A DNA stretch of 8,736 nucleotides from an uncultured Prevotella sp. (lineage in GTDB: Bacteria; Bacteroidota; Bacteroidia; Bacteroidales; Bacteroidaceae): positions 1 through 8,736 of the forward strand of contig USSA01000121.1 of NCBI GenBank assembly GCA_900557255.1, written 5' to 3'. Positions 1,820 to 8,736 of this stretch are shown piece by piece (the stretch's first letter is position 1; every line of letters starts with the position of its first letter). A program made the position numbers and the translations under genes. The notes under the pieces were generated by a model, which was given only the letters and a program-made list of their open reading frames with translations, was not told the DNA's origin and did no database searches.

Positions 1820-2068
1820 ATGACATACAATATTAATACTATATATACGAAGTATAAGCTGCTTACGAAAAAGCAACGTCAGCAACTCCTTGCGATCTTA
1901 CAGTTGCAAGGTATCAACGTTGTCAAAATCGAAGCCTACGAATATTCCGATGCCCCAGGCATTAAACATATGTTTTTCTATTTTTCGGATAGCCAAGAAG
2001 CCATCCCCTATTTTATGTTAGACAAAAAGGTATGGGAAGAGATTCAGATGGCAATCATGAAAATCTAG
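1820..2068 (+). CDS. Small hypothetical protein, 82 residues
   Basis: I do not recognise this gene. It encodes 82 residues from an ATG, preceded by an A-rich leader (AAACAACGGTT) without a clear Shine-Dalgarno. The N-terminal third looks helical and basic (YKLLTKKQRQQLLAIL, residues 13-28). The rest alternates hydrophobic and polar residues in a β-like pattern (VVKIEAYEYSD, then HMFFYFSD), ending in a short helix, so the composition is that of a compact soluble protein rather than random translation. No signal peptide or membrane segment is visible. It is the only gene here on the plus strand, divergent from the polysaccharide genes and convergent with the HNH nuclease gene (36-base gap). This placement suggests an independent transcription unit. 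It could be a remnant of the older locus or a small accessory of the neighbouring cassette; nothing decides between these. Confidence 0.55.
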   Translation: MTYNINTIYTKYKLLTKKQRQQLLAILQLQGINVVKIEAYEYSDAPGIKHMFFYFSDSQEAIPYFMLDKKVWEEIQMAIMKI

Positions 2069-2079
2069 CAAGACCAACA

Positions 2080-2094
2080 TATTGTATTACAATA
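2080..2094. repeat. 15-base palindrome between convergent genes
   Basis: TATTGTA and TACAATA arms (7 bp, perfect) flank a single central T in the 36-base gap between the convergent 82-residue gene and the HNH gene. With a one-base centre and no T-tract it is a poor intrinsic terminator. A dimeric-protein site or chance AT-rich symmetry are alternatives. Confidence 0.3.
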
Positions 2095-2104
2095 GGAGCT
2101 TCGC

Positions 2105-3097
2105 TCATATCACCCCACCTTCTTTCATTTGCTTGATAGTATCTTGTCTTAATTTTGTCAATGGTTCTTTATGTATATCAGCCTCATTAAGCGACAATTG
2201 ATTTGATAGATAAGCTATTGCATTTGCCTTTGTATTTTCAAATCCATAGCTTGCTGCCATAGCTTGCACTAGCGAATCATTAGTTTTAAAAGCATTCTCA
2301 TAAAGTTTAGAAACTTCATTGATACGACCTGCATACAAAGAGTCAATATGGAACATCTTTTCATGAACCTTACTTTCTTTCGTCACTCGCTTTCCGCTAC
2401 CTTTAAACAATATCTCACTGCAAGTAGGATAAGGACCTATTCCGCAACTTACCTTAGGGACAAAACGGAAAGGAGACAACACCTTATGCTGGTCAGCGTT
2501 GACATATAGCCCGAAATCAGAATCTTTCTTTCCCTTATGACCATTACAAATGCCACAAGATGGCTGAAGATTATAGAAACACGTTCCCAAGAAAGGATAC
2601 TTACTCTGTGGTTGATAATGATCCATCTGATAATAAACCTGCTCATCATTTGAAATTGTGGGTATTACATTGCAGTAAACACAAGTTTTCAATCCCATTT
2701 GCAGTTGGATTTCACCCAATATCAACCTTGCATCCTCATAGCGCAAACAAGAAATAATCCTCTCATAAAATGGTGCTTCATGGACTTTGCCTTTACCACT
2801 AACACCATAGACCACCTTTCTTGTCAGCATAGTAGGTTCCCGTTGCAATACCACATCATATTTTTGAATATAAGCATTCCAGTCCTTAGGTTCAAGAGTA
2901 AGAACAGCAGGATAATCACTTATCAATAAACCAATATAGTCAGTAACCGCAGTCTTGTCTATCCCAGGATTGTGTGCTGCAACATAATTCCTAAGTTTTT
3001 CCAAATCATCCACAACTTTTGGGCACTTTACCTTAACTTTTGAAGCATAATCTTGTGCATATCCTCTAATTGTATCATCTATCTCAATCTTTCTCAT
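2105..3097 (-). CDS. HNH endonuclease, PtuB-like partner of the adjacent ATPase (Septu-type)
   Basis: The 330-residue protein has a central zinc-bound HNH (ββα-metal) nuclease core: C139-V-Y-C142, then D159-H160 in QMDHYQPQSKYPF, then N176-L-Q-P-S-C181-G-I-C184-N185 and K188-G. The four cysteines should hold a structural zinc; H160 with N176 are the likely catalytic/metal residues. The pattern DHxxPxSKYP...NLxPxCxxCNxxKG matches nucleases paired with SMC-like ATPases in Septu defence (PtuB), where the nuclease cuts nucleic acid during phage infection. It is longer than the PtuB proteins I know, with an extra ~130-residue N-terminal helical part and a ~130-residue C-terminal part. The ATG at 3097 is chosen because AGGAGG sits 7 bases upstream; an upstream start at 3118 would add seven residues. 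It overlaps the ATPase gene by 14 bases, so translation is probably coupled. Cognate role is inferred from context. Confidence 0.85.
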   Translation of the reverse strand: MRKIEIDDTIRGYAQDYASKVKVKCPKVVDDLEKLRNYVAAHNPGIDKTAVTDYIGLLISDYPAVLTLEPKDWNAYIQKYDVVLQREPTMLTRKVVYGVSGKGKVHEAPFYERIISCLRYEDARLILGEIQLQMGLKTCVYCNVIPTISNDEQVYYQMDHYQPQSKYPFLGTCFYNLQPSCGICNGHKGKKDSDFGLYVNADQHKVLSPFRFVPKVSCGIGPYPTCSEILFKGSGKRVTKESKVHEKMFHIDSLYAGRINEVSKLYENAFKTNDSLVQAMAASYGFENTKANAIAYLSNQLSLNEADIHKEPLTKLRQDTIKQMKEGGVI

Positions 3098-5108
3098 TTC
3101 TCTTCCTCCTATCATCATACAATTGTTGCAACTGCATCTTCAGAAAAGGGTCGCCAATGATTTCCATCAACTTCCAATATTGCTCTTCCCATTTTTCTGT
3201 AAAATAGCCATTAGGTCGTAAACGAGTAATCATATCTGTCACTTTTCTACGAGCATATTCCCCAGTAAAGCCATTTTTCAAGAAAAAGCTCTGATATAGA
3301 ATATCACAGATATTGGCAGCAAATGGATTTTTGAAATCTCTAGTATCAGGTACCATTCCGTTTTCCAAATACAAGATATTACACTGTGGAATATCTGATA
3401 AGATAAAAGGAGAATGAGTAGCAATCATAATATTAAAAGAAGCATGCCGATTCATGCTCAATCGCTTGATATATCCAAGGAGTTCATCCACGAACCTACG
3501 TTGATACTCAGGATGGAAACACATCTCTACCTCATCAAGTATCAGATTAATATGCCTATACTTTACCCTATGAGATTCTTGGATGCTAAGCAAATTCAGA
3601 ATATGATAGATGTATGTACTGAAAGTATATAGATATTGTCTCTCTCCAGAGCTCATCTGCTCTACCGGAATAGCAAACCTATTCACACGTTCACCATTAA
3701 CCACCCTATCCATAAATATTTGTGTCTTGAAAAAAGAAGGAGGCAAGTACTCTTGGATATCTCTCATCTTGCGAGGATACGCCCCTTTAAATACAGGCAC
3801 CACATAATCTGGATAAGAAATAGACTCAGACCTTAGCCACTGAGAGTTTACACGCCCATCAAGCAAAGCATCTATGAAATGCAAAGTCTGCCTAATCTTT
3901 AAAGTAACATGAGATTTATCCTTCAATATAGTCTTAACCAATTCCCAAACAAGAATCCGAGACTCCTCAGTTACATCTTGCACAAACCCATCAAGTTCTC
4001 CCAAGATAGCAAACTTTTCATACGAAGGATAACTATTAGCTATTGCAAACGTCTTATATATAAGATACATCGCTGCGGTTCGTTGCATCACATCATCCAA
4101 ATTCAGATGAGCAGCACAACCATATGCATATAAGATTTCAGAGCCTATATCATGCTCCTCATTAGTTTTTAAGTGAAACTTATGAAACACCTCTTCCTTC
4201 ACATCATAATCCTTCAAATACTTTTCTTCCAATCCATCTTTGTCAAATGTATAGAGAATACTATTTAGCCTATATTCCTTCATGAACTCCCGATTATGCA
4301 TTTGAGCATAAATCATAATGGAAGCTAATCTGGAAATCGTCAGACGATGCTCCTTATTGATGTCAAAAACCCCATTGTCACGATAAGGATTCAAAACAAT
4401 CGGAGTCATATATCCATCATTCTTGTGAAAAAGACTATTGATCCAGCTATTCCCCTTTACTTCAAAAGCATCTTTATCCAAGCTATTACATTTCTCCCAA
4501 ACAAAATCATTCGCATTAAATGCCTGCAAACTATAGTTAGTAACTATCGAGTAAAAAAGGCTTTCTTTTGCCCATTTCACAAAATCAGACATTAAGACAT
4601 ATTTTACTTCATCATCCAGACCAGGCATATCGAATGCTACCAAAGAAACCACCTTGCCATTTCCAACTTGAAACTCAACTGCATTATCAAAACAAGAGAT
4701 TCTCGCCAATTTTCCATCAATAACATAATAGATTTCAGCATAAAGTCCCTTTATGAAATAGAGAGCATCTGATGACTTACGTCTTTTCCCCCGATTCAAC
4801 AAGCAGCCCAGATTGTTGATAACTCGATAGATGATTTCGAGCAAGGAAGACTTTCCGCTTCCATTCACTCCCACGATAGCTTGTACATTGATACGTTTAC
4901 CATAGAAATCTCGTGGCAGCATACTATCACTCAATACTACTTTCTTATTTTCGAGGTAACACCTGTCATTAAGAAAGTAATACTCTTGGCGCAGTCCTTT
5001 TTTTAAATTAGCACTGCATTTAGGCAAAATATGAATGGCAGAAATGCAAAAATCATGTATAGGTTGCTCCTCAATAGGAGTAATAAAAAAGTCATTGTAA
5101 TATTTCAT
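3084..5108 (-). CDS. SMC/ABC-like AAA family ATPase, PtuA-like (Septu-type)
   Basis: The 674-residue protein carries a complete ABC/SMC-type ATPase site split by a long middle region: Walker A GVNGSGKSS (80-88), signature motif MSSGERQ (485-491), Walker B LILDEVE (522-528) with catalytic Glu, and the H-loop ATHSPFILSD (563-572). The insert between about 100 and 480 is mostly helical-looking. The C-terminal FAANICDILYQSFFLKNGFTGEYA stretch (596-619) resembles a segment common in defence ATPases of the PtuA/OLD-like group (from memory). No TOPRIM domain follows the ATPase. In Septu, PtuA forms a complex with the HNH protein PtuB and controls its nuclease; the next gene encodes exactly such a protein. 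The start is the ATG at 5108, since extending to a TTG at 5123 adds only MIIVC-like residues. There is no clear Shine-Dalgarno. Family placement is confident; Septu subtype is not settled. Confidence 0.88.
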   Translation of the reverse strand: MKYYNDFFITPIEEQPIHDFCISAIHILPKCSANLKKGLRQEYYFLNDRCYLENKKVVLSDSMLPRDFYGKRINVQAIVGVNGSGKSSLLEIIYRVINNLGCLLNRGKRRKSSDALYFIKGLYAEIYYVIDGKLARISCFDNAVEFQVGNGKVVSLVAFDMPGLDDEVKYVLMSDFVKWAKESLFYSIVTNYSLQAFNANDFVWEKCNSLDKDAFEVKGNSWINSLFHKNDGYMTPIVLNPYRDNGVFDINKEHRLTISRLASIMIYAQMHNREFMKEYRLNSILYTFDKDGLEEKYLKDYDVKEEVFHKFHLKTNEEHDIGSEILYAYGCAAHLNLDDVMQRTAAMYLIYKTFAIANSYPSYEKFAILGELDGFVQDVTEESRILVWELVKTILKDKSHVTLKIRQTLHFIDALLDGRVNSQWLRSESISYPDYVVPVFKGAYPRKMRDIQEYLPPSFFKTQIFMDRVVNGERVNRFAIPVEQMSSGERQYLYTFSTYIYHILNLLSIQESHRVKYRHINLILDEVEMCFHPEYQRRFVDELLGYIKRLSMNRHASFNIMIATHSPFILSDIPQCNILYLENGMVPDTRDFKNPFAANICDILYQSFFLKNGFTGEYARRKVTDMITRLRPNGYFTEKWEEQYWKLMEIIGDPFLKMQLQQLYDDRRKRNEKD
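3105..3110 (-). promoter_or_regulatory. Shine-Dalgarno AGGAGG of the HNH gene
   Basis: AGGAGG lies on the minus strand 7 bases before the ATG at 3097, inside the last codons (Arg-Arg) of the ATPase gene. A strong Shine-Dalgarno is unusual among the genes of this window and fixes the nuclease start. Confidence 0.75.
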
Positions 5109-5214
5109 ACATACTATTATCAAAGAATATTATGGTAAGATAATTAGAGAAATGGCTTTTGAGAATGCTATATTCAGTAAGTAAAAGATTAGTAAGACTG
5201 AGTTCGAAATTCGC

Positions 5215-5264
5215 ACAATTGCTGTTCCCAAATAAACATTGTCTTCATTGCGAACAGCAATTGT
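5215..5264. repeat. 13-bp perfect inverted repeat upstream of the ATPase gene
   Basis: ACAATTGCTGTTC (5215-5227) and GAACAGCAATTGT (5252-5264) are exact inverted copies separated by 24 bases. They fill much of the 164-base gap between the 185-residue gene and the ATPase gene. In RNA this gives a stable hairpin starting about 24 bases after the upstream stop. No T-tract follows on the minus strand, so it is not a standard intrinsic terminator. It could instead protect a transcript end, attenuate or process the transcript, or bind a dimeric regulator as DNA. Confidence 0.75.
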
Positions 5265-5287
5265 TACACAAAAATCATAATCTGAAA

Positions 5288-5845
5288 TTAACTCTTTAAA
5301 GCATAAGAGCCTGCTAGCTCTTGTATATATTTCTTCTCATCTTCCTCTGTCGGTCTATCAACAGGAATCCTTGCCACATAGCTAGTAAAACGCATCATCA
5401 TCTGTTCCACAAAAGGATGATTAAGCTGTCCTATCGGTTTCAAGCCGTCAATAGAATCTAAGTTTAACGATTTTAGATGTTGAAAATCAACGACTAAGCT
5501 ATCCAAATCAATCACAGGACGAGGATCAAAAAAGAAATGCCTACATATATTCTTATTATGGATATACCCAGATAAAAATCTTATTAAGGCATCATATTGT
5601 TTTTTCTTTAACTGCCCATCAGTAGAATCTTTTACGATACTCTGAAATTCTTTAGAAGAACCAAGCACATCAGCAGCCACTTCCAAAGCAGCAACCATCA
5701 AGAAGCCACTATGATCATGTTCCAAGTCACAAGCATTAGAGATGACAATTCCCAAAGGATTTTCATCTCCTAATCCCCAATCCACACCATCCACTATGGT
5801 TCCTTGAGTAATCTGCCCCTTAAATTCTGAAATCCAAATGCTCAT
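5288..5845 (-). CDS. Hypothetical protein with SNACDLEH motif, 185 residues
   Basis: I cannot name this gene. It encodes a soluble-looking 185-residue protein with no membrane segment. A hydrophobic strand runs into the motif VISNACDLEHDH (34-45), where the Ser-Asn-Ala-Cys-Asp run could be a catalytic or metal-binding turn. Later come RHFFFDP (102-108), a Leu/Val/Asp strand LDSLVVDFQHL (114-124) and PFVEQMMMRFTSYVARIP (144-161). This layout reminds me of a broad uncharacterised family with a VIS/TxxCDL motif near the N terminus and a VVDxRxL plus arginine-ending helix near the C terminus, sometimes seen in defence or mobile regions. That is recollection, not a search result. The ATG overlaps the stop of the 103-residue gene (ATGA), indicating translational coupling. 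A 164-base gap with an inverted repeat follows before the ATPase gene. Confidence 0.75.
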   Translation of the reverse strand: MSIWISEFKGQITQGTIVDGVDWGLGDENPLGIVISNACDLEHDHSGFLMVAALEVAADVLGSSKEFQSIVKDSTDGQLKKKQYDALIRFLSGYIHNKNICRHFFFDPRPVIDLDSLVVDFQHLKSLNLDSIDGLKPIGQLNHPFVEQMMMRFTSYVARIPVDRPTEEDEKKYIQELAGSYALKS

Positions 5846-6153
5846 TCTTCAATCGTTAAAATTTCTCCTAGAGTTTTTCCGTTATAAGTGCTATTAAACC
5901 AATTCGATTGAGAGATTCTTTTGTATCTTTCTCTAAAATTCTTCTTTTTAGGAAACAAATAAATATTATCTTGCTGCATCTGCGTATTACTTTCAAAGCT
6001 ACAAAAAGCCAAAGAATTACCATTAGCAGCAAAGCCAAGCCCTGTATCTACAGGATTTGCATTAACAGTCAACGCAGTCATAGTCATTGCCATCAATGCA
6101 CATTTCTTTGCAAAAAAGCTTTGGCTACTTACCGTCATAGTTGTTTTATCCAT
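5842..6153 (-). CDS. Small hypothetical protein with short hydrophobic segment, 103 residues
   Basis: Unrecognised. The 103-residue product has two lysines (16-17) followed by a moderately hydrophobic, methionine/threonine/alanine-rich stretch (18-30) ending in NANP. This superficially resembles a signal peptide, but it is short, rich in threonine and starts late, so export is doubtful. The middle part GLGFAANGNSLAF (38-50) is glycine/asparagine-rich. The C-terminal third is basic (KKKNFRERYKR, 69-79) and then acidic. AGGA lies 3 bases before the ATG at 6153, which is close for a Shine-Dalgarno; an ATG five codons further in would be spaced less tightly. It begins 11 bases after the 211-residue gene ends and overlaps the 185-residue gene by 4 bases, so the three are one transcription and translation unit. 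A small regulatory or antitoxin-like partner is possible but unsupported by any motif. Confidence 0.7.
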   Translation of the reverse strand: MDKTTMTVSSQSFFAKKCALMAMTMTALTVNANPVDTGLGFAANGNSLAFCSFESNTQMQQDNIYLFPKKKNFRERYKRISQSNWFNSTYNGKTLGEILTIEE

Positions 6154-6164
6154 AATCCTAAATA

Positions 6165-6800
6165 TTATTCACTAAACAAATGATCAACAACCTCAGAATT
6201 TACTTTTTCTATAGAAGTCTCTATTAAACTTCTCAGTTGAAGAGCATCGGGAATCGAGTCTGAATTCTGATTATGATGATGATTGATATTGATAAAGACA
6301 CCATCATCCACCCCCATTCTTGGTTCAACATCCACATTTGCGACCTGATTATCATCAAGACCAATTCGTAAAGTCAATTTACCACACAAGTGGAAATCGC
6401 TATTCGGTGCGATGTTTCCATTAATAAAATGGTCCCACATCCAAACTTCTGCATTTTCACCTAAACCCAAAATTTCCTTTTCAAAGTTAATTCCAAAGGC
6501 AGACAACGCCATTTTGAATTCAGGATTGATTCTTTTCAATTCGTTTTTTATTGCCTCAACATAACAAACCAAGCTTTCAATATCTTGAGCTTTTACAATA
6601 AGCTTAGCAGGATTAATAATGACCATTGGATATGGTTTATTATTCACTGCAATAGTATAACCTTCAGGTGTCAGTCCATTCACCGTTTCGTATGGCATCC
6701 CAAACAATTCACGGCAAAATTTTCCATCCATCTGCGGCATCATAGCCATTGGTTGATTCCAAACAGCTACATACGACAAACTCATATCTTTCTTTTCCAT
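6165..6800 (-). CDS. Hypothetical protein, first gene of the defence-linked operon, 211 residues
   Basis: Unrecognised soluble protein of 211 residues. The pattern suggests a mixed α/β fold: N-terminal strand (SLSYVAVW, 7-14), strand VNNKPYPMVIINPAKLIVKA (52-71), helix IESLVCYVEAIKNELKRI (74-91), then a strand-rich part GKLTLRIGLDD (140-150) and VANVDVEP (153-160). It continues with DDGVFININHHH (165-176) and a C-terminal helix (186-210). The three histidines after the NIN strand are notable. Length and the final strand-plus-helix layout loosely recall TIGR04255-type proteins found near defence genes, but I see no convincing match. It leads the gene row, about 20 bases after a plausible start point set by the -7 element at 6828-6835. 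The start could be the ATG at 6800 or the one at 6785, which has the AG-rich GAAAAGAAAG just before it. The 103-residue gene follows after 11 bases. Confidence 0.75.
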   Translation of the reverse strand: MEKKDMSLSYVAVWNQPMAMMPQMDGKFCRELFGMPYETVNGLTPEGYTIAVNNKPYPMVIINPAKLIVKAQDIESLVCYVEAIKNELKRINPEFKMALSAFGINFEKEILGLGENAEVWMWDHFINGNIAPNSDFHLCGKLTLRIGLDDNQVANVDVEPRMGVDDGVFININHHHNQNSDSIPDALQLRSLIETSIEKVNSEVVDHLFSE

Positions 6801-6827
6801 TGTTCTGCTATATTATTATTTTTATTG

Positions 6828-6835
6828 CAAAAGTA
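6828..6835 (-). promoter_or_regulatory. Putative Bacteroidetes promoter -7 element of the five-gene block
   Basis: TACTTTTG on the minus strand matches TAnnTTTG exactly, 27 bases before the ATG at 6800. The expected TTTG at 19-21 bases upstream is absent; a TTTG occurs 12 bases upstream, which is too close. It would place transcription start near 6821 and leave a short A-rich leader. The surrounding 6836-6958 interval holds no gene and is very AT-rich. Confidence 0.5.
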
Positions 6836-6958
6836 ATCAAAATCCATCAAAGTTGGTTATTTTTTATTGATTTTTATTAGTTTTTCACCATAAAATCTAT
6901 ATTTACCTCATATTCTCGATTCTGAATCCTCAAAATTGCAGAGTTGTAACAGAATTCA

Positions 6959-7147
6959 CTATATTCTATCCAACTTAATACATCTCGATAATATATACCC
7001 TATCCTCTCCTCAAACTTACTCAAAGTAAATTCTTGTTCAAACTTCTCCTTTCCTACTATTCCCATATCCTCACGGAGCTCTCTGTCTTTCAACAGCATT
7101 TCTATCATATCAGCCAACGTAAGTATCCGCTCAACGCCGTATTGCAT
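6959..7147 (-). pseudogene. C-terminal remnant of a GT4-type (Glycos_transf_1) glycosyltransferase
   Basis: Only the last 62 codons remain. The translation has the typical end of a GT4 retaining glycosyltransferase: LADMIEMLLKDRELREDMG (10-28), then GKEKFEQEFTLSKFEERIGYIL (32-53), matching the usual pattern of a 'ADAIxxLLxDxELRxxMG...vxxxFsxxxxxxxxxxxY' helix pair. The ATG at 7147 is not a real start: an in-frame TGA lies two codons upstream, and the Rossmann domains and EX7E motif that should precede this tail are missing. The IS66 transposase gene begins 135 bases to the right, so the rest of the glycosyltransferase was probably separated by that insertion or deleted. Originally it would belong with the WecG-like and nucleotidyltransferase genes in a polysaccharide locus on the same strand. 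Confidence 0.72.
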
Positions 7148-7282: not shown

Positions 7283-8736
7283 TTATTGTTCCTCATCTTC
7301 CCAAAACTCAGGAAGAAGAGTATAATACTTATCCTCAGGCGTAGAATCTATGTGCTTCAACACATAACAAAGCCAACGCTCAGGATTTTTATCTAGCACC
7401 TTACATGCTCCAAACAAGGAGTACATCATTGCTGCACGCTTACAAGCATCCAAGTCACGGCAGAACAAATAAGCCTTCTTACCCATCACCATGTCACGGA
7501 TCAGGCGTTCGGTATCATTATTATCCAAAGGCATGTCTGGGATGTCTATATAATTGGTCAGCTCTGTATAGTTGCGCAGCATATAGTTCAATGCCTGGTA
7601 TATATTGCTGTCTTTTGGCACATCCAAGATGGCACTTGCAGCCCATAGCTTGAAGTCCTCCCATAGCGGCTCGGCATGGTCCTTCCTGAACTGTGCCTTC
7701 TCCTCGCCCTCAAGTTTCTTCTCCTTTATCATTTCCTCAATCAGGTTAATGTTCTGGTAGAAGAGAATACCTATCTTTGCAAGATTAGGATTTTCCTTTA
7801 AGGCTCGTTCCATTGGTCTTCGGGCATGAACGACACAACGACACAATATGCGACCATTTATCTTCTTCAGCCAATCATAGCCAGAGTAACCATCACATAT
7901 CAGCGCCACACCTTTCCAATCTTTGAGGTTGTCCATGATGTCAGCAGTACCCCTACCATGCTTGTTTTTCGTATTAACCATGAAGATTGGGATGCCTGTC
8001 GCCACAGAACGATATTGAATCAAGTAATGATTTACCGTCTTATGCTTCTCGCAGTCCAATATAGGGAATGGAGAACCATCAGCACCAAGCAGCAAACTGG
8101 ACATTACCCGATCCATCTGCAGATTGTAGAGAGGTTCTATCTTGTCACATACACCCTGATGCCAATCATCCACTGTTGAAGGAGCGAGTGTCAAGCCATC
8201 CTGTTTCATCTTCTTTATCTGCCGGTTAAACGGCTGATGAAGAACATACTTATTACACTCTAACTGCGCCAACAACTCTGCAGAAGCATAACTCTTCCAA
8301 AATACGTCCTCATAGCAAGGAGACTGCAAGAGCTGCTGCATTGGATCATCCTTGCGGCGAACGACAGGACGACGATATGGCTGAACAAAGTAGCGTACAT
8401 TGGCTGGCACTATAAACTCCTGCACCTTGCCTTTGTAAACTATTACATATTCATCCTCATGTCCTATATAGCCTTCAGGCCAAAGTACCTTTTCATCCAA
8501 ACGAGGCATATCCTTTGGTATAGGATTTCGTCCATGCCCCTTCTGTTCCTTCTGGCTATCCACAAGTTTCTTTATAGCCTTGCGCTTGCGATACTCCTCA
8601 CAGAATTCACGACACTCCTGGTAACGTTTCTTTTCCTCATCAGTGAACTCAATCGAAGCCAACACCTTATCATAGATGGTTTCACGTTCTTCCTTACTAA
8701 AGACTACCCGCTCACGCTTTTGAGTAAATATCATTC
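7283..8736 (-). CDS. IS66 family transposase (TnpC), 5' end outside window
   Basis: The visible 483 residues form the catalytic transposase of an IS66 element, which cuts and joins DNA at the element ends. The DDE triad is readable: D219 in LLGADGSPF, D281 in ALICDGYSGYDWL, and E409 in PLDNNDTERLIRD. The CRCVVHARRPMERAL stretch (298-312) and the C-terminal LLPEFW box (473-478) are also family-typical. A first ATG is at 8734, but IS66 transposases normally carry a further N-terminal coiled-coil segment before the region seen here (KRERVVFSKEE corresponds to the 'KSE' region), so the gene probably starts to the right of the window. No frameshift or internal stop is seen, so the protein may be functional. 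Its GC content looks higher than that of the neighbouring five-gene block. Confidence 0.93.
   Translation of the reverse strand, partial: MIFTQKRERVVFSKEERETIYDKVLASIEFTDEEKKRYQECREFCEEYRKRKAIKKLVDSQKEQKGHGRNPIPKDMPRLDEKVLWPEGYIGHEDEYVIVYKGKVQEFIVPANVRYFVQPYRRPVVRRKDDPMQQLLQSPCYEDVFWKSYASAELLAQLECNKYVLHQPFNRQIKKMKQDGLTLAPSTVDDWHQGVCDKIEPLYNLQMDRVMSSLLLGADGSPFPILDCEKHKTVNHYLIQYRSVATGIPIFMVNTKNKHGRGTADIMDNLKDWKGVALICDGYSGYDWLKKINGRILCRCVVHARRPMERALKENPNLAKIGILFYQNINLIEEMIKEKKLEGEEKAQFRKDHAEPLWEDFKLWAASAILDVPKDSNIYQALNYMLRNYTELTNYIDIPDMPLDNNDTERLIRDMVMGKKAYLFCRDLDACKRAAMMYSLFGACKVLDKNPERWLCYVLKHIDSTPEDKYYTLLPEFWEDEEQ

Follow-up and report, generated by a model that had tools for sequence, protein, structure and literature searches.

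Five genes lie on the minus strand between positions 2105 and 6800 of an 8,736-nucleotide stretch of DNA from an uncultured Prevotella sp. (contig USSA01000121.1; the whole stretch is hereafter the window), and the question that they raise is whether they form one enlarged defence system or two systems side by side. The last two encode a Septu-like ATPase and an HNH nuclease; the first three encode proteins of 211, 103 and 185 amino acids (aa), here termed p211, p103 and p185. The explanation that we favour, with a probability of roughly 0.55, is that the genes form two independent mobile modules arranged head to tail: the Septu-like pair, and a cassette with a toxic effector of MazF fold (p185) that would be inhibited by p103 and controlled by a head protein (p211). 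The Septu-like module is of a known kind, and no description of such a three-gene unit was found in narrow literature searches. The features concerned are as follows, in the order of transcription.

6828–6835, minus strand: TAnnTTTG element TACTTTTG, candidate −7 promoter of the cassette; a motif match, by itself not above chance
6165–6800, minus strand: p211, first cassette gene, open reading frame (ORF) of 211 aa
5842–6153, minus strand: p103, second cassette gene, ORF of 103 aa
5288–5845, minus strand: p185, third cassette gene, ORF of 185 aa
5215–5264: inverted repeat in the gap between cassette and ATPase gene, arms 5215–5231 and 5248–5264 (17-base arms, 16 bases between them, 94%)
3084–5123, minus strand: Septu-like ATPase gene (PDC-M62A), 679 aa from TTG or 674 aa from an in-frame ATG 15 bases on
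2105–3118, minus strand: HNH nuclease gene (PDC-M62B / PtuB-like), 337 aa, or 330 aa from an inner ATG read off the sequence

Separability of the cassette and the Septu-like pair

An earlier note on this DNA had described five co-oriented minus-strand genes of lower guanine plus cytosine (GC) content than their flanks. Both observations hold: ORF calling returns the genes listed above, and the GC content is 32–39% in 500-base windows over 2001–7000 vs about 42–48% toward both ends. The five are not chance ORFs, because the trio proteins have clusters of homologous proteins, some of them partial (p211, n = 36; p185, n = 62; p103, n = 20), and the ATPase and HNH proteins match known families. 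The note proposed, as one possibility, an extended Septu system, in which the trio would supply added sensors, regulators or effectors. All five genes would then act together, and the shared strand, short spacing and shared low GC content are in keeping with this. Homologous loci (L numbers) and their genomes (G numbers) argue against it. In a survey of 397 genomes from the family of G001, the ATPase (E-value, E, of 1e-10 or lower) is present in 16, in every case with an HNH match beside it, and neither p211, p103 nor p185 was detected near any of these 16 loci (tblastn E ≤ 0.01, plus profiles), 13 of which offer at least 1.1 kilobases (kb) of upstream sequence and three fewer than 600 bases. 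Among the same genomes p185 (profile A1) occurs in four and p211 (profile A5) in five.

The converse comparison involves a second kind of head protein, TIGR04255, an NCBIfam subfamily without a stated function that takes the first slot in sister units. No ATPase or HNH match was found in 17 records with a trio or a TIGR04255 unit (16 distinct, L007 and L008 being one sequence), which comprise nine trio loci and seven other TIGR04255-unit loci and do not include L085, L086 and L092. The sequence ends about 130 bases past p185 in L004 and about 0.9–1 kb past it in L003 and L006, so the downstream sides of these three are only partly seen; the whole genomes or virus records behind L001–L008, that of L004 included, carry no ATPase (0/8). 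Two genomes do carry it, G377 with a trio and G201 with a TIGR04255 unit, each on a contig other than that of the unit. Within the window, the 164-base gap and its inverted repeat separate the modules. The trio and the ATPase–HNH pair are two separable modules: each recurs without the other, and this mutual absence across loci, the outcome that the note itself had named as refuting, largely refutes the extended Septu, which we regard as very improbable. It agrees with the alternative that the note had also offered, a separate small system beside the pair, and cautions that a gene upstream of a Septu-like pair is not automatically part of Septu.

The spacing given in the note stands in part. 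Eleven bases separate p211 from p103, p103 and p185 overlap by 4 bases, and the gap before the ATPase gene is 164 bases, or 179 from the ATG; the 14-base overlap of the HNH and ATPase genes applies only with the inner HNH ATG, and it becomes 35 bases when the outer start is used. The inverted repeat, which the note had missed, marks the junction of the two modules (fold z −3.3; equally stable shuffles 0/200) and is a possible terminator or operator. As for the promoter-like element, TACTTTTG, which we take to be of the Bacteroidetes −7 type, does lie 27 bases before the first ATG; across the window, however, its motif occurs 13 times against 8.8 expected.

A recurrent unit with exchangeable parts

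The trio is found at nine distinct further loci, always in the order head protein, small protein, p185. The head is p211 in L001, L002, L003, L012 and L036, and TIGR04255 in L004–L007 (over the stretches compared, L008 is the same sequence as L007); the L007 protein matches the subfamily at E 5.1e-24, those of L005 and L006 are its relatives by alignment, and that of L004 is like L005 by eye. TIGR04255 also fills the first slot of L054, L056, L058, L060 and L061. The window p211 itself falls short of the 30 bits set for TIGR04255 and has no NCBIfam match at E ≤ 1; p211 and the TIGR04255 protein share one operon slot and the same partners (L001–L003 vs L004–L007). At L091 a p211 head (E 3.3e-71) is combined with a type II effector (see below; superfamily profile E 1.2e-6), with a tail and effector otherwise linked to TIGR04255. 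This cross-swap indicates that the two are exchangeable heads, though sequence similarity between them is undetected. A full-text literature search for the name TIGR04255 (name only) found no paper.

The effector slot is similarly variable, with three types: p185 (type I), proteins of 201–214 aa (type II) and PemK-type proteins (type III). The type II effectors of L054, L056, L058 and L091 are 39–78% identical to one another and 22–29% identical to the type I proteins of L001 and L005. The effector of L060 matches PemK_toxin above the cut-off (E 1.9e-6), and the L061 protein is 65% identical to it. At L055:4983–6831 and L057:485–2208, TIGR04255 is followed by two genes, of 180–189 and 149–152 aa, which by eye are alike in the two loci and represent another partner type; L055 is a Pantoea prophage, and L057, from a Bacteroidales family, has an amidase gene nearby.

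Such exchanges bear on the proposal that p103 and p185 are a classical two-gene type II toxin–antitoxin pair with an unrelated passenger gene at the head. A MazF fold with a small partner is what this would predict, but p211 or TIGR04255 heads all nine further trio loci as well as the examined type II and PemK units, and one slot filled by two different heads is difficult to ascribe to a passenger. We consider it improbable.

The small proteins and their tails

The p103 protein, for which a role as antitoxin or tether is proposed, has a weak N-terminal hydrophobic stretch, a variable middle and a conserved C-terminal tail, TLGEILTIEE. Across the units the C-termini of the small proteins follow three patterns, [ST][IL]G[EDQ], FWD[LM] and [RK]WL, and the pattern matches the type of effector, not the head, in 16/16 units, although the patterns were defined after the sequences had been viewed and the 16 units are not independent by descent. 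L059, with only a 56-aa frame in the place of the small gene, was left out of this count. The match, a consistent hypothesis and not a test, hints at contact between tail and effector.

Predicted fold and conserved site of p185

The proposed effector, p185, is predicted to adopt a MazF/CcdB fold, with structural matches to MazF and a predicted local distance difference test score (pLDDT) of 88 in the AlphaFold model. It carries the motif N37-A-C39-D40, and across 16 diverse relatives G15, C39, D40 and R159 are invariant and R102, D120, F121 and Y156 near-invariant. It shares its predicted fold with the MazEF/PemIK family (PF02452), a member of which fills the same slot in a sister unit; it differs in having its own C-D / R / D-F / R set and in belonging to a three-gene unit. 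There is no PF02452 match at E ≤ 1 (Pfam), for which reason p185 is not counted among the PemK proteins.

Behind the p185-superfamily loci, the search gave 12 genomes with a match. Two have a trio (L035, which is the L001 place, and L036), two a fusion with a receiver domain (L037 and L038) and six a stand-alone protein (L039–L044); the remaining two (L045 and L046) are broken fragments seen in a profile scan only. The six stand-alone proteins, all of 188 aa, are alike and come from genomes of the same phylum; they show that the p185 domain also occurs outside the trio. In L047 a p185-like domain is fused behind a receiver domain (above the Pfam cut-off), and thus sits in the output position, beside an ATPase that has parts resembling HSP90 and histidine kinases; in its relative L048 the receiver falls under the cut-off (19.7 of 30.2 bits). 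The L047 unit adjoins a DrmMII-like methyltransferase (E 5.4e-172), and a two-component defence unit is possible.

L047:3716–6918: two-gene unit, ATPase and then receiver plus p185-like fusion
L048:3407–6647: two-gene unit of the same composition

Mobile settings and a possible role at the envelope

Several units lie in mobile settings. PHROGs matches were obtained for 9/10 neighbour proteins tested: L001 is next to terminase and portal genes, L003 has a tape measure gene at a distance of about 1 kb and L008 a tape-measure-like fragment at about 8 kb, a head protease is near L081, amidase/endolysin genes are near L080 (which has the third partner type, not p185) and L082, and integrases adjoin L050 and L084. 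In the Pantoea prophage L055 a TIGR04255 unit of the third partner type is placed between lysis and terminase genes. L002, by eye, is among chromosomal genes.

These phage-gene neighbours would also suit a phage or mobile gene set that acts at the cell envelope, against the host or against competing phages, in lysogenic conversion or superinfection exclusion, with p185 as a non-enzymatic MazF-like binder and p103 as a small membrane or exported protein, not an antitoxin. The N-terminal hydrophobic stretch of p103-type proteins, strongest in L007 (mean hydropathy 2.0), tail-less p103 variants (described below) and the fact that the arginine usually conserved in MazF was unseen in p185 in a weak alignment all point the same way. 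However, the hydrophobic stretches are weak (0.85–1.56) in 10/11 of these proteins, PemK-type proteins fill the effector slot in L060 and L061, and the invariant C39, D40 and R159, with near-invariant R102 and D120, in the 16 relatives have the look of a working site. On balance an envelope role is unlikely, though less so than the two-gene pair.

Proposed mechanism and comparison with known systems

In the favoured two-module explanation, p185 would be toxic, probably to RNA or translation. MazE-type antitoxins hold MazF inactive, and p103 could do likewise for p185 by means of its tail. The p211 protein, proposed as a sensor or chaperone-like component, may stabilise p103, or may sense infection and so free the effector, like the chaperone in toxin–antitoxin–chaperone systems; such a unit would serve to protect against rival phages or to maintain the element. 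The chaperone of CmdTAC senses a phage capsid protein, with release of the toxin (PMC11618068). Systems of this type resemble the trio in their three genes, which encode an effector, a small partner whose C-terminal part is important and another folded protein that could act in stabilisation or sensing, and their effectors vary between systems, as in the trio units. The effectors themselves are different, that of CmdTAC being an ADP-ribosyltransferase and that of the trio a predicted MazF-fold protein.

A broader possibility, which we advance tentatively, is that these units make up an undescribed combinatorial class of prophage and mobile three-part toxin systems. The head, TIGR04255 or p211, would be a phage sensor or chaperone; the linker with its exchangeable tail would be a specificity code guarding a p185-type, 201–214-aa or PemK effector; and p185 would represent a new MazF-fold branch with its own conserved site, which also serves as a response-regulator output domain. 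Should the TIGR04255 units prove to be three-part toxin systems, a gene set that recurs in prophages would gain a testable role, the MazF fold would acquire a branch whose conserved residues differ, and the matching of tails would provide a compact model for the pairing of an antitoxin-like peptide with its effector.

Several results weigh against a MazF-fold toxin held by p103 and governed by its head. For the effector, no profile link was found between p185 and MazF in PDB sequences, the profile probability with two PemK-type proteins is only 6%, and Foldseek returned no row at E ≤ 0.001. MazF usually has a conserved arginine, which is unseen in p185 (in a weak alignment) and absent in L061, although present in L060. 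The surroundings of the stand-alone proteins of L039–L044 gave no p211, TIGR04255 or p103 profile match. As regards the head, p211 is not recognisably a chaperone and shows no profile similarity to a five-member TIGR04255 alignment (0.9%), and 4/10 TIGR04255 loci (L062–L065) have other partners, the rest being associated with the p185 superfamily (three: L056, L058 and L059), PemK-type proteins (two: L060 and L061) or the pair of 180 and 152 aa (one: L057). In L058, L060, L061 and L091 the small proteins gave no match to the p103 profile and were assigned by place and tail pattern only. Finally, the tail is absent in 4/7 aligned p103 homologues (20 found), apparently through a frame change, which is odd for an antitoxin.

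The tail-less homologues P0112, P0115, P0116 and P0118 diverge at a lysine-rich stretch, and their loss of the tail could reflect decay, phase variation or assembly error. A frame of 552 aa close to L062 has a weak superfamily match (L086, E 2e-4). The trio proteins of the window reach no Pfam or NCBIfam cut-off and have no PADLOC match and no PHROGs match better than E 0.1, the best for p211 being only E 0.14. The AlphaFold model of p211 (pLDDT 89) gave no convincing PDB match, and SecB was not among the matches listed for it.

The Septu-like pair

The note's Septu-like reading of the ATPase–HNH pair is borne out by PADLOC matches and intact motifs. The best match of the ATPase is PDC-M62A (E 7.5e-51), ahead of PtuA1 (E 4.9e-16), and that of the HNH protein is PDC-M62B (E 3.2e-26), ahead of PtuB1 (E 1.9e-10). 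Walker A (GVNGSGKS), signature (MSSGER), Walker B (LILDE) and THS motifs are intact in the former, as is CxxC..DHxxP..N..CxxCN in the latter. Like Septu and the PADLOC candidate PDC-M62, the window pair has an HNH gene after the gene of an ATPase whose motifs are intact, and in a Bacillus cereus genome survey 203 PDC-M62 calls are reported to duplicate Septu calls (PMC11811056). The window pair differs from Septu in that its scores lie far under the NCBIfam equivalog cut-offs for PtuA and PtuB (37.6 of 500 bits and 15 of 150 bits), and therefore it is not of the Ec78 retron subfamily. No reverse transcriptase gene was seen among the ORFs of the window, so the pair is not Septu type II as this is presented in PMC8565338. 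For one Septu system, cleavage of tRNA-Tyr has been reported, with ATPase and HNH motifs both required (PMC13096335), and by analogy the window pair is expected to work in this general manner.

Genomic surroundings

A p103 cluster 99% identical is assigned to Segatella copri, so the window probably comes from this species or one related to it, although caution is called for with a mobile gene. Between the HNH gene and a WecG/TagA/CpsF glycosyltransferase gene at 1015–1782 (Pfam) there is a plus-strand frame of 82 aa (1820–2068) with a weak PHROGs match only (E 0.019). On the other side of the cassette, an IS66 transposase gene (7283–8734) adjoins a short minus-strand frame at 6959–7147, which has no Pfam match and by eye resembles the C-terminal end of a glycosyltransferase. 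The WecG gene, the glycosyltransferase-like remnant and IS66 together suggest a sugar-polymer cluster broken by IS66.

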